Positions 38,794 through 57,667 of a DNA stretch of 64,000 nucleotides are shown here, one piece after another. Under the pieces are notes generated by a model. The model was not told the origin of the DNA, searched no databases, and saw only the letters and a list, made by a program, of their open reading frames with translations. Every line of letters begins with the position of its first letter. The first letter of the stretch is position 1. The position numbers and the translations under genes were made by a program. This stretch comes from Tachypleus tridentatus (taxonomy: Eukaryota > Arthropoda > Merostomata > Xiphosura > Limulidae), in contig NC_134830.1 of NCBI RefSeq assembly GCF_004210375.1, positions 70,224,326 to 70,288,325 of the forward strand, written 5' to 3'.

Positions 38794-39133
38794 GGCCTGG
38801 CATGGTCAGATGATTAGGGAATTCGACTTGTAATCTGAAGGTCACGGTTCGAATACCCGTCCCAACAAACATGTTCGCCCTTTCAATTGTAGAAATGTTA
38901 TAATGTGACGGTCGATCCCACTATCCATTGTTAAAGAGTAGTCCAAGAGTTAGCCGTGGGGGCATTATAATATTATGGTCAATCCCACTATTCGTTGGTA
39001 AAAGAGTGCTTAAGAGCTGGCAGTGGGTGGTGATGACTAGCTGTCTTCTCTCTAGTCTTTCAGTGCCAAATTAAGGACGGCTAGCACAGATAGCCCTCGT
39101 GAAACTTTGCGCGAATTTCAAAAACAAACAAAC
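38794..39133 (+). mobile_element. SINE family A copy with internal duplication
   Basis: Plus-strand copy about 65 bp longer than the others. The segment that normally reads GGGGGCGTTATAATGTGACG, GTCAATCCCACTATTCG, GTAAAAGAGTAGCCCAAGAG occurs twice in a row (about 38885-38952 and 38953-39020). The second version starts GCCGTGGGGGCATTATAATA. Confidence 0.88.
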
Positions 39134-43004: not shown

Positions 43005-43282
43005 AGCCCGGCATGGTCAGGTGGTTAGGAAGCTCGACTCGTAATCTGAGAGTTTTGGGTTCGAATCCTTGTCACACCAAACATGCTCGCCCTTTCAGCC
43101 CAGTAGAGGCGTTATAATGTTATGGCCAATCCCACTATTCGTTGGTAAAAGAGTAGCCCAAGAGTTGGCGGTGGGTGGTGATGAGTAGCTGCCTTCACTT
43201 TAGTCATACACTACTAAATTAGGGACGGCTAGCGCAGATAGCCCTCGATAAGCTTTGCGCGAAAGTTAAAAACAAAAACAAG
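43005..43282 (+). mobile_element. SINE family A copy with long target-site duplication
   Basis: Full-length plus-strand copy (GCCCGGCATGGTCAGGTGG... to AAAACAAAAACAAG). Flanks at 42984-43004 and 43283-43303 form a 21-bp direct repeat with two mismatches (AAAATGGATCAG... and AAAATAGATCAG...). Confidence 0.95.
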
Positions 43283-43631: not shown

Positions 43632-43637
43632 TTATTA

Positions 43638-44087
43638 CACTATGTAACACAAATTTTGTTCCTAGATAGTATGTGTTATTTCTTAATTGCTTGTGTTGTA
43701 AAAGTACAAAAAATGGCCATTATTTCCTTCAAACTTTGCTTTTGTAGATAATGAAATTTAGAAATTAACCAGTTTTTATATAAAAAAGGGGCAAATTTGC
43801 ACATTTACATTTACATAAGGCCCGAATAAAACAACATAGGAATCAAGATTTACATGCATTTATACTGAAGTTATACAAAAATGTTTAGAAGTGAGTAGTT
43901 TTTCAAGATTTGCGACTGTAATGTAAATCACTTTCACGTATCAGCCCCCAAATATATTCTCCCAGGTGACAAAGACAAAGTTTGGAGAGAAAAATAGGTC
44001 TTTTCCATTTACTTTAGGCATAAGCAATTGGGAAATAACACTTTCTGTCCAGGAACAAGAAAAAAGTAAAAAATTTGTTATATAGTG
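43638..44087 (-). mobile_element. 450-bp inverted-repeat element, internally deleted
   Basis: The left end starts CACTATGTAACACAAATTTT and the complement of the right end starts CACTATATAACAAATTTTTT. The two arms can be aligned over about 110 bp (43638-43745 and 43968-44087), sharing TTCCT.GA.AG, GTGTTATTTC..AATTGCTT and TCAAACTTTG/CCAAACTTTG. It is flanked by TTATTA on both sides (43632-43637 and 44088-44093). Positions 43638-43967 match 46009-46338, including the last codons of the uncharacterised gene (IWGLIRESDLHYSRKS on the minus strand). Positions 43968-44030 match 47605-47665. It is therefore a deletion derivative that kept both ends of the larger copy and lost almost the whole coding region. 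Confidence 0.85.
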
Positions 44088-44093
44088 TTATTA

Positions 44094-45523: not shown

Positions 45524-45803
45524 CTGGTTGGTTGTTGTTGTGGAATTTCGTGTAAAACTACACGAGAGCTACCTCCGCTAGCCGTCCCTAATTTAGCAGT
45601 GTAAGACTAGAGGAAAGGCAGCTAGACATCACCACTAACCGCCAAATCTTGGGCTACTCTTTCAACGAATAGTGGGATTGGCTATCACATTATAACGCCT
45701 CAACTGGGCTGAAAGGGCGAACATGTTTGGTGTGACGGGGATTCAAACCTGGAACCCTCAGATTACGAGTCGAGCTTCCTAGCTTCCTGGCCATGCCGGG
45801 CCT
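45524..45803 (-). mobile_element. SINE family A copy
   Basis: Full-length minus-strand copy (GTTGTTGTTGTGGAATTTCG... to TGGCCATGCCGGGCCT). It is flanked by a perfect 11-bp repeat CTATCGTCAGA (45513-45523 and 45804-45814). Confidence 0.96.
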
Positions 45804-46260
45804 CTATCGTCAGAAGATGACGATGGAAATATATTTGCGGGAAAGATGCGCTCTGCTACAACTAATAATAAACAAAGACTGATAATTTTAATTAATCATT
45901 AATCTGATATAGCAACCAAGACTGCAAGTTAACTAAGTTAAAGAAAGTTGTCGACGTAAAAATGTCAAACAGAGAAAATAAAATTATCGAACGAGATCAA
46001 CTAAACTACATTGTGTGACACAAAATTTGTTCCTGGACAGTATGTGTTAGTTCTTAACTACTTATGTTGCAAAAATACAGGAAATGGCCATTATTCCCTT
46101 CAAACTTTGCTTTTGTTACCTGAATAATGACATTTAGAAATTAACTTATTCTCTATGTAAAAACGGACAAATTTGCCAATTTTCATTTACATAAGGTCTG
46201 AATAAAACGACATGTGAATCAAGATTTATATGTATTTATACTAAAGTTATACAAAAATTT

Positions 46261-47400
46261 TTAAAAGTGATTAATTTTTCGAGATTTGCGACTGTAATGT
46301 AAATCACTTTCACGTATCAGCCCCCAAATATAGTTTCCCATCATGTTTTCGTTATATGTTCCTTGATAGCGGCGTTCAAAGTCCAGTATATCATGGTGGA
46401 AGCGTTCGCCTTATTCCTCTAAGTATGCTCCCACGTTCTCCTTGAATTTATCAAGATTAGCGTCAAGGATATGGACTTTCAGGGACATCCTGCAGCCCAT
46501 TTTGCCGTAGTTCTTCACCAGAGCCTCAACCAATTTCACATAATTTTCGGCCTTGCGATTACCCAAGAAGCCCCGAACCACTACGACAAAGCTGTACCAA
46601 GCTTTCTTTTTCCCTTCCTACTGAGCTTCTTGAGGAATTCTTTGCACTCCAGGATCTTCTTTATTTGTAGTCCAACGAAGACATCAGTTTTGACCTTTGC
46701 CCCAGACAGCTTAGGGAAGAAGTCTCGAAGGTACTTGAAGGCTGTGACAAATTGTTTCATAAGACTTAATTTTATGTGCAATGCTGTGACAAATTATTTC
46801 GTAAAACCCAATTTTATGTGTAATGGTGGGAACAATACCATCTGGAGGTTGACATTTGACATTGTGCCTCCCAACAGGGAACTCGGTCCGTTGTGGGCAG
46901 TGTCCCTGCTGTCACAAAGGCAAAGATAACAGGGAAACTTGGTAAAGCTTCCTTAGAGACCCATCAGAAATGCCACCATTTTGAAGTATCTGATAACCTC
47001 CCAGTCATACTCATCATACTTCAAGGCTTCTAACAAAGTCTTGACGCTGTTGTATTCGTCTTCGAGGTGCACCGAAATATATTTAAATTTTAAAAGGTCT
47101 AAAATTTGTATAATATAAAATCTTACTATTCAAGCAAGCAAAAATTGTCCGTCTTACCTTCTAGATTTTTTTTTAAATGCTCGCAGGTAAAATGAGGTGC
47201 CCAGGGTTTGTCTTAATCCCAGAAAGGCATGCTGAAACATGCCTTGTAGGCTTCACACATTTTAGGAGATGCTGTCAGAGAGTACTTTTTCGCTCTTTTC
47301 TTGATAAATTGACCACATACATAGCAGAATGCGTCTGGAGAATACTTGCAGCTTCTTCATGCCATCTTTGATAAAACCAGATAGGTCTATGTATTCACTT
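46261..47400 (-). pseudogene. Broken gene of an uncharacterised arthropod protein family, probable transposase
   Basis: Read on the minus strand. The N-terminal piece (about 47400-47165) has GMKKLQVFSRR, then in another frame FCYVCGQF..KRAKKYSLTA and WAPHFTC, a Cys-rich, possibly zinc-binding segment. A large deletion follows. The next piece (47075-46870) reads VHLEDEYNSVKTLLEALKYD, EYDWEV..FKMVAFLMGL, a stop, then FTKFPCYLCLCDSRD. Next come LFPPLHIKLGF, FVTAFKYLRDFFPKLSGAK and VFVGLQIKKILECKEF (46840-46600). After a frameshift near 46600 a frame runs to the end: FLGNRKAENYVKLVEALVKN, MSLKVHILDANLDKFKENVG, an in-frame stop at 46411-46413, GERFHHDILDFERRYQGTY, IWGLIRESDLHY, and a stop at 46261. 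I recall closely similar proteins annotated as hypothetical in spiders and insects; I know no assigned function. At least three inactivating changes are visible. Confidence 0.8.
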
Positions 47401-47454
47401 ACGCAGCTAGAACTAAATTGAAGTGGTGAGTGGTGATCCCCTGTATATATATTA

Positions 47455-47535
47455 CTATGGAAAGTTCTAGAAAATTCTCGTAAGTTCTACAACATTCTAG
47501 AAAGTTCTTGAAAATTATTGTAAGTTCGAGAAAAT
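47455..47535 (+). repeat. Short tandem repeat, about 20-bp unit
   Basis: Four diverged units of a motif like AAGTTCTAGAAAATTCTCGT lie upstream of the broken gene, inside the right part of the element. The AGAAnnTTC-like spacing resembles heat-shock elements, but with this AT content it may be chance. Confidence 0.6.
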
Positions 47536-47690
47536 TCTCTATTATCTACTCAGCACTGAATCTACCTGAAATGTTTTGTAAAATGAATAAATTTGAAAAT
47601 TTTATTACTCAGGTCACAAAAGCAAAGTTTGAAGAGAGAAATAGGTCTTTTCCATTTACTTTAGGCAAACTCATAAGTTATTGCTGTAAT

Positions 47691-48932: not shown

Positions 48933-49364
48933 CATATATATTAGGTTGTTGTAACCAAAAACAAGCCGAAACAAAAATAAATAAAAATGAAAACGATATA
49001 CTAATTTAAAGGATCCAAAGGTACAAGCTATAATGTGAGATATAAAATGTATCCTATGTTTTGGAGGTGACGGAAGAAGTAGTAGCCACATTGCGGTAGA
49101 GATACACCGTCTATCAGTCTTAACCTCCATTCGCCAGTCTCGCATAAAAAAATAAAATAAAAGTAAATGAATAGCAATAGAAACAGAAATTAAGGGAAGT
49201 GTGATGCGAGTGCTCAAGTCCACAATATCCCACATCTATATCACTCTTCACTGTGTGCAGACAGTTATTGGAAAATGATTCCTCTCCAAAGTGAAGAAGA
49301 AGAAAAAAAAAAAAGGTACTACATTGGGGGTAAGTAAGTTAAACAGACTTATCTCGTGAAGTTA
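48933..49364 (+). repeat. Direct repeat of about 430 bp, left copy
   Basis: The repeat starts CATATATATTAGGTTGTTGT and ends GGTACTACATTGGGGGTAAG... GAAGTTA. It matches 52828-53269 along its whole length at a level I would judge around 75-80% by eye, in the same orientation. Landmarks are ACAAGCTATAATGTG.GATAT, GGTTTTGGAGGTGAC-type text and CTTAACCTCCATTC. The 125-codon minus ORF here is not convincingly kept in the other copy. Confidence 0.85.
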
Positions 49365-50166: not shown

Positions 50167-50429
50167 CGTTTGTTTGTTTGTTTTTGAATTTTGCACAAAG
50201 CTACTCGAGGGCTATCTATGCTAGCTGTCTCTAATTTAGTAGTGTAAGACTAGAGGGAAGGCAGCTAGGCATCACCACCCACCGCCAATTTTTGGGCTAC
50301 TCTTTTACCAACGAATAATGGAATTGACCGTCACATTATAATGCCCCCAAGGTTGAAAGGACGAGCATGTTTGACGCGACGGATTTACGAACCCGCGACC
50401 CTCAGATTACGAGTCGCACGCTTTAACAC
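50167..50429 (-). mobile_element. SINE family A copy inside the hAT element
   Basis: Minus-strand copy (GTTTGTTTGTTTGTTTTTGA... to GAGTCGCACGCTTTAACAC) truncated just before the outermost head bases. It lies in the non-coding 5' part of the hAT element, so it inserted after the hAT did. Confidence 0.92.
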
Positions 50430-52827: not shown

Positions 52828-53269
52828 CATATATATTGGTTTGTTATAACTTAAAAACAAGCTAAAACAAAAATAAATTAAAATATAATAAATTACTAAA
52901 CAAATAATGCTGCAAAGATTCCAGCATACAAGCTATAATGTGGGATATAAAATGTACTCTAGGTTTTGGAGGTGACTCAAAAAGTAAAACTCACATTGCA
53001 GTGGGGATACACCATCTATCATTCTTAACCTCCATTCATCAGTCTCACATAAGAAATAAAGGAGTAGCAACAGACATAGAAATAAAAATTAAAAGAGCGA
53101 GATGTGGGTGCTCATGTTCATAACTATCTTACATCCATATCACCCTTCATTGTCTGCAGACAGTTATGGGAAGGTCACTGCTCTCCAAAGTAAAGAAGAA
53201 GATAAAAAAAAGTAAGTATAAGGTACTACATTGGGGTAAGTAGGTTAAATAACTTACCTCATGAAGTTA
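52828..53269 (+). repeat. Direct repeat of about 430 bp, right copy
   Basis: Partner of 48933-49364. It starts CATATATATTGGTTTGTTAT and ends ACATTGGGGTAAGTAGG... GAAGTTA. Without the hAT element, about 265 bp separates the two copies. The pair could be terminal repeats of a very short retroelement or two units of a local duplication. Confidence 0.85.
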
Positions 53270-57092: not shown

Positions 57093-57667
57093 TGTTTGTT
57101 TGTTTTGTGTTTGAATTTCGCGCAAAGCTACACGTTTGTTTGTTTGTTTTTGGAATTTCGCGCAAAGCTACGCAAAGGCTATCTGCTCTAGCTATCCCTA
57201 ATTTAGCAGTGTAAGACTAGAGGGAAGACAGCTAGTCATCACCACCCACCGCCAACTCTTGGGCTACTCTTTTACCAACGAATAGTGGGATTGACCGTAA
57301 CATTATAACGCCCCCACGGCTGGGAGGGCAAGCATGTTTGGCGCGACCGGGATGCGAACCCGCGACCCTCAGATTACGAGTCGCACGCCTTAACACGCTT
57401 GGCCATGCCGGGCCGTAAAGCTACACGAGGACCGTGTTTGCTAGCTATCCCTAATTTAGCAGTGTACGACTAGAGAGAGAGCAGCTAGTCATCACCATCA
57501 ACTCCCAACTGTTGGACTACTTTTTTATCAACTAATAGTGGGATTGACCCTCTTATTATAACATTCCCACAGCTGAAAGGGCGAGCATGTTTGGTATGAC
57601 GGGGATTCAAACTCGCGACCATCAGATTGTGTGTCGAGAGTTCTAACCACCTAGTCATGCCAGTGTT
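57093..57667 (-). mobile_element. Older SINE family A copy, split by a younger one
   Basis: Minus-strand copy whose tail (57093-57134, TGTGTTTGAATTTCGCGCAA) is separated from the rest (57417-57667: ACACGAGGACCGTGTTTGC ... CACCTAGTCATGCCAGTG) by a second SINE. Joining the two parts gives one continuous, fairly diverged copy. Confidence 0.93.
57135..57416 (-). mobile_element. Younger SINE family A copy nested in the older copy
   Basis: Full-length minus-strand copy close to the consensus. It is flanked by a perfect 11-bp duplication AAAGCTACACG (57124-57134 and 57417-57427), which is itself part of the 3' tail of the host SINE. Confidence 0.97.

Follow-up and report, generated by a model that had tools for sequence, protein, structure and literature searches.

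A probable Chapaev3 transposon relic in the Tachypleus tridentatus genome with a heat-shock-element-like array upstream of its transposase gene

A broken protein gene lies between inverted repeats in the genome of Tachypleus tridentatus, and the question is whether this gene is the transposase of the repeats that surround it and, if so, to which group the transposon belongs. We analysed a window of 64,000 nt (NC_134830.1:70,224,326-70,288,325, designated G000:C6) against its own genome of 2.17 Gb in 205 contigs. An earlier note on this DNA had proposed that the protein is the transposase of an undescribed group of DNA transposons. We find that the transposon part of this proposal holds and that the anatomy leads to a group that already has a name. 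From published descriptions we place the minus strand of the window at 46009-47673, with a probability of roughly 90%, as a dead copy of a Chapaev3 cut-and-paste DNA transposon. Chapaev3 is a member of the CMC group and is related to Transib and RAG1.

The window copy is a decayed deletion derivative whose extent was drawn from genome matches, alignment borders and end models. Its right terminal inverted repeat lies at 46009-46134 on the minus strand, where end model positions 2-124 align at 46134-46012 and the outermost three bases are extrapolated. At the other side a remnant of the left repeat lies at 47578-47673, also on the minus strand, where only positions 61-156 of the left-end model match; the outer 60 positions are gone and the left (5′) end is truncated near 47673. 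Because this outer end is lost, the target duplication of the window gene copy is unreadable. Exon 1, which encodes a cysteine-rich N terminus with two CxxC pairs and contains two stops, lies at 47158-47365 on the minus strand, followed by the donor side of an intron (47079-47157). Here an internal deletion, with an approximate junction, runs from the intron into exon 2 and has removed the segment with the aspartate D1, so this copy could have moved only with an enzyme from intact relatives. Exon 2 survives on the minus strand in two frames, one (46581-47078) with the region of the second aspartate (D2), a CxxC pair, PPLH and two stops, and the other (46264-46617) with H(4)H, GERFH, the C terminus and one stop. 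Besides the stops and the frame change, D2 is replaced by Tyr and the second His of H(4)H by Asn, and a 42-bp tandem duplication lies within the coding remnant (46738-46821, minus strand). The motifs listed in the earlier note are all present, with FPCYLCLCDSR and PPLHIKLG in 46794-46952, VFVGLQIKK in 46581-46793, FLGNRKAENY and MSLKVH in 46411-46617, and GERFHHDI and IWGLIRES in 46261-46410. The arrangement exceeds what chance would give, as the stretch has at least 12 other near end-to-end matches in its own genome at 82-85% identity (40 scored of 7,939 candidates), and in an alignment of 21 rows its borders are sharp and common to the copies.

Other repeats are found in the same window. A ~270-bp repeat occurs in several copies and in both orientations (43006-43279, 45531-45801 and 50177-50416), with similar words at 38898-39027 and 57094-57171; by eye its head resembles a tRNA-derived SINE, but neither ARAGORN nor Rfam detects anything within the window. 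A ~380-bp repeat is present as two direct copies 3.9 kb apart (48957-49329 and 52853-53236) whose pieces are ~79-91% identical.

If the protein belongs to the element, the two should be found together elsewhere. Using a query of 167 residues of the protein only, we found at least 150 places in its own genome (150 scored of 9,573 candidates). Inward-facing end repeats, some of them partial, stand on both sides of the protein in 29 of the 30 loci fetched from this search, L049 being the locus without one, and this agrees with the view that the protein is the transposase of a DNA transposon. The 30 loci are partly non-independent: a single insertion is found at two places as L029 and L030, the flanks of L032 are identical to those of L036, and a tandem array accounts for L047, L057 and L058. 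Among elements in which both ends can be read, L031 (2,468 bp) and L041 (2,497 bp) are the longest, and both are complete copies.

Some of these loci have features of their own. L047, L057 and L058 (G000:C12:46031946, 46038342 and 46044733) are spaced by ~6.4 kb in one orientation, as if they were part of a larger tandem array. L025 and L030 hold the same insertion at two sites on C1, with a KTQNTLTTFELLSY-like coding repeat adjoining the left end of L030 and a similar repeat in L025. Beside the right end of the element in L016 there is a frame of 113 aa whose sequence is like the end of a Tc1/mariner-type transposase.

A host gene family lying by chance in repeats would be expected to have evolved under selection, and the frame does carry such a signature. 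After removing duplicates (L022, L029, L030, L036, L040, L057 and L058), we counted codon variants in 44 sequences and found a ratio of synonymous to other changes of 104:170 for variants common to at least 4 copies versus 153:574 for singletons (p = 1.1e-7 at columns with at least 20 copies; p = 2.6e-7 at columns with at least 30). Common variants are thus richer in synonymous changes than singletons, indicating that selection acted on the frame before its copies fell into decay. A host gene is nevertheless a very improbable explanation given the 150 scored places, the coincidence of element borders and end repeats with the gene in nearly every fetched locus, and the fact that no open frame in those scored places exceeds 405 aa, which is shorter than exon 2.

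The same family includes the 450-bp element whose arms, as the earlier note had pointed out, are matched by the sequences on the two sides of the gene; the end models recover both matches. This element lies at 43638-44087 on the minus strand, between two copies of the target-site duplication TTA (43635-43637 on the left and 44088-44090 on the right). Window comparison and the end models indicate that both of its ends are complete, and it has in common with the window gene copy both ends and the final codons of the transposase gene. Judged by these shared parts, the 450-bp element is a MITE, an internal-deletion derivative of the family of the window transposon. We found at least 40 similar places in its own genome, counting the element itself (40 scored of 5,086 candidates), and 15 deletion copies differ from one another by a mean of 11.8% in pairwise comparison with gaps ignored. 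The element lies in unique sequence, and a search with its joined flanks found no empty site. Its inverted repeats and target duplication are as previously described, but not the duplication length of 6 bp: the TTATTA match is a longer match in that single copy, and the duplication itself is TTA.

The length of the duplication was read across the family with end models built from the deletion copies and run over 50 loci (L009-L058) and the window. We kept 38 elements whose ends matched within a few bases, counting identical flank pairs once. The termini read CACTATG...CATAGTG and so carry the 5′-CAC...GTG-3′ of Chapaev3, with deviations in single copies such as CAT, TAA and GTA. Of the 38 elements, 27 are flanked by an exact 3-bp direct repeat, none by one of 4 or 5 bp, and one by a 6-bp repeat, versus 0.24 six-base matches expected from shuffled pairings. 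Without L030, which is the same insertion as L025, 37 independent insertions remain; 26 have an exact 3-bp duplication and 11 do not, and in 10,000 shuffled pairings the number of exact duplications averaged 11.8 and never exceeded 23. The high level of this control comes from the prevalence of TTA and TAA, and the informative part is the middle base. Where TWA stands on both sides (n = 26), the middle base agrees in the direct sense in 23 cases and in the inverted sense in 3 (Fisher p = 1.2e-4). The exact duplications are TTA or TAA in 23 of 26 cases, and the insertions are preceded by A (33/37), followed by T (36/37), or both (32/37). The target duplication of the family is thus 3 bp, usually TWA inside A|TWA|T. 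The insertion at L033 seems to be common to a duplicated segment, with the same flanks and a similar split at G000:C7:89255835-89257659 and C7:91057699-91059515, and a search with its joined flanks found no empty site.

The transposase gene reads as two exons between the inverted repeats, encoding a protein of ~560 aa. Exon 1 has ~69 codons with the two CxxC pairs, and exon 2 has ~492 codons as measured in L048 and L031, which are both broken. The GT-AG intron between them is 207 nt in L048, 216 nt in L050 and 217 nt in L041, and its donor is lost in L031. Exon 2 contains, in order, D1 (LFIDSSS), a spacing of 54, D2 (GDFKM), a spacing of 19, CxxC (PCYLC), PPLH, HxxxxH (HILDAH), a spacing of 17, and E (GERFH). 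Retention of these residues among the copies is 29/30 for D1, 40/49 for D2, 45/49 and 44/48 for the two cysteines, 36/47 and 39/47 for the two histidines, and 39/48 for E. These seven residues are retained about as often as acidic, Cys and His positions elsewhere in the frame and no more often, and their retention supports the layout without proving catalysis. We regard the D, D and E as candidate catalytic residues, the Glu of GERFH being the likely third. The earlier note had sought this triad in FPCYLCLCDSR, VFVGLQIKK and GERFH; its choice of GERFH probably stands, whereas FPCYLC corresponds to the C(2)C motif and neither aspartate lies in VFVGLQIKK. Taking PPLH, as we infer, to be the LH motif published for Chapaev3, C(2)C, LH and H(4)H occur in order between D2 and E as in that group.

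Profile, structure and pattern searches returned little that resembles this protein. A Pfam-A scan gave nothing over cut-off in six window pieces and seven frames of relatives, the N terminus of one relative reaching 19.5 bits with zf-AD, below the cut-off of 28. Interferon and GRAS appeared below cut-off at the level of chance and were rejected. A search of solved structures with one window piece, a core profile and an N-terminal profile gave nothing meaningful, and RAG1 was not found. In its own genome neither PF02992 nor PF12940 matched, and since the control was silent too, their absence is not shown. Phage and plasmid records gave no match with one frame each. IMG/VR yielded no relative with one protein query and none with the pattern PPLHIKLGLM, and the pattern GERFHQDI selected 19 loci from IMG/VR and GTDB genomes, none of which encodes a relative (best tblastn E 0.026); both patterns see close relatives only. 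No paper mentioning the peptides GERFHQDI or HLDFFPEN was found in the literature.

We propose that the transposase would be a D-D-E nuclease with an RNase H-like fold, in which C(2)C and H(4)H together bind zinc as they do in RAG1. Its cysteine-rich N terminus would hold the element ends, and the enzyme would cut the element out and join it with a 3-bp stagger. In the available part of its published account, RAG1 has D600, D708, C727/C730, H937/H942 and E962 (PMC4914335). The window family and RAG1 have in common the spacing of 19 from D2 to CxxC, the spacing of the two histidines and the CAC ends. They differ in the spacing from H to E (20 in RAG1, 17 in the window family) and from D1 to D2 (108 versus 54).

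Target duplications separate the family from several other systems. Transib makes a duplication of 5 bp, and Dada one of 6 bp according to the earlier note. In contrast to Transib, the window family makes a 3-bp duplication and has no exact 5-bp match among the 38 elements. IS3EU is given a 6-bp duplication in the part of the source available (PMC12730594), and a kinship with IS3EU or Dada, with which the earlier note had proposed a comparison, finds no support in the 3-bp duplication of this family. According to the description of Chapaev3, as far as it was available, the termini are CAC and GTG, the duplication is TWA and always has A before it and T after it, the transposase shows C(2)C, LH and H(4)H, and MITEs arise by internal deletion; Garfield_BM (2,289 bp, two exons, 556 aa) and Merrow_PM (2,451 bp, exons of 78 and 484 aa) are members (PMC4079192). 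Compared by description, the window family is like Merrow and Garfield in its CAC..GTG ends, its A|TWA|T duplication, C(2)C and H(4)H, LH by the PPLH reading, its two exons, its size of ~2.3-2.5 kb, and its internal-deletion MITEs. Chapaev3 with a complex N-terminal zinc finger, the Chapa domain, is described in a second source seen in excerpt (PMC4411706), and Chapaev is listed in a third among the superfamilies present in all arthropods investigated (PMC6327564, also in excerpt). In anatomy the family agrees with Chapaev3 at its ends, in its duplication and the bases targeted, in its motifs, and in exon plan and size, which suggests a new member of a group that is already known. The earlier note had held that classification under a named superfamily would speak against an undescribed group, and because the features of the window family match Chapaev3, its anatomy places it in such a superfamily.

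Could the element instead belong to another lineage of the same supergroup, either EnSpm/CACTA proper or a separate CMC branch? CAC..GTG ends with a 3-bp duplication fit EnSpm too (PMC12730594), Repbase filed Chapaev and Mirage under EnSpm in 2015 (PMC4455052), and a CMC clade of unclassified animal transposases has been reported beside the fungal CNEST (PMC12810828), each according to the portion of the source available. We consider this alternative unlikely, as the A|TWA|T target, the division into two exons and the element length are those of Chapaev3. In addition, Transposase_21 (PF02992), which marks EnSpm, matched none of the six window pieces and seven frames of relatives.

The unexpected part of this Chapaev3-type family is a promoter-like array, resembling heat-shock elements, upstream of exon 1. 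The interval from the left end repeat to the start codon contains alternating 5-bp units, nnGAA and nnTTC, which we take to be heat-shock-element units. In the window copy (47460-47539, minus strand) 12 of 16 units are in register, whereas the rest of the window, both strands considered, reaches at most 4 of 16. The count is 13 of 16 in the majority row of the deletion copies, and in the long copies tested it is 11 (L031), 9 (L041), 12 (L048) and 13 (L050). Each of the 15 deletion copies has at least one three-unit site, with a total of 61 versus 0.11 expected in Markov-resampled sequence, although these sites are not independent because the copies share ancestry. Across 48 loci (248,193 bases), 138 of 144 three-unit sites sit 120-300 bp inside left ends. 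Such a site is present at 43 of 50 left ends and absent from 7, whereas none of the 49 matching right-end regions has one. A query with the array segment found at least 40 places in its own genome, including itself (40 scored of 1,381 candidates). Downstream of the array, a TATA-like match is found in 13 of the 15 deletion copies and TCAKTY in 12 (TCAGTT in 11), as raw counts of short motifs; the window copy has no TCAKTY match.

An array of this kind can be read in two ways. It may be a simple 10/20-bp tandem repeat that merely resembles heat-shock elements and has no function, for which we see about an even chance. Tandem Repeats Finder reports periods of 10, 20 and 40 at the window array, and the GAA-nn-TTC spacers of the majority row largely alternate between TT and CT, as expected if the array grew by 20-bp duplication, as it may have done; common ancestry accounts for its presence in many copies. 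Against a functionless repeat, the base composition leads one to expect a four-unit ancestor in register only ~7e-5 times per 300 bp, and the array stands between end repeat and start codon in the deletion copies as well as in each of the four long copies that were tested.

The other reading, which we hold tentatively and at somewhat less than even odds, is that of a Chapaev3 family with an hsp-type promoter made up of a 16-unit array, a TATA-like stretch and an initiator-like TCAGTT. The array would have served as an HSF-driven promoter of the transposase, heat would have driven transposition, and the copies would have spread strong HSF sites through the 2.17-Gb genome. Both heat induction of the transposase and a function of the array are inferred here from the DNA. 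A precedent is found in Caenorhabditis Helitrons, whose heat-shock elements bind HSF-1 and whose enzyme is heat-induced, as stated in the part of that report available (PMC6927752). The likeness is that, in many copies, grouped heat-shock elements precede the gene for the enzyme that the element encodes; the differences are that Helitrons are another superfamily in another phylum, and that binding and induction were measured there and are predictions from sequence here. In a fungus, putative heat-shock elements have been reported in LTR retrotransposons, and the CMC element CNEST is mobile (PMC12810828, in excerpt). The available portions of the literature thus report heat-shock elements in Helitrons and in fungal LTR elements, and we saw no Chapaev case in them, which does not prove absence from print. 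The accessible description of Merrow and Garfield mentions no heat-shock-like array of the kind that the window family carries (PMC4079192).

These results give a name to a protein for which the Pfam-A scan of window pieces and relatives' frames yielded no match over cut-off and which the earlier note described as an arthropod family without function. Naming the family would keep relics of its transposase from being mistaken for host genes. The array in turn poses the question whether a RAG-related cut-and-paste transposon may be induced by stress. It also poses the question whether copies of this family may have rewired the heat-shock response, as the available part of one report describes for the Helitrons of Caenorhabditis (PMC6927752).
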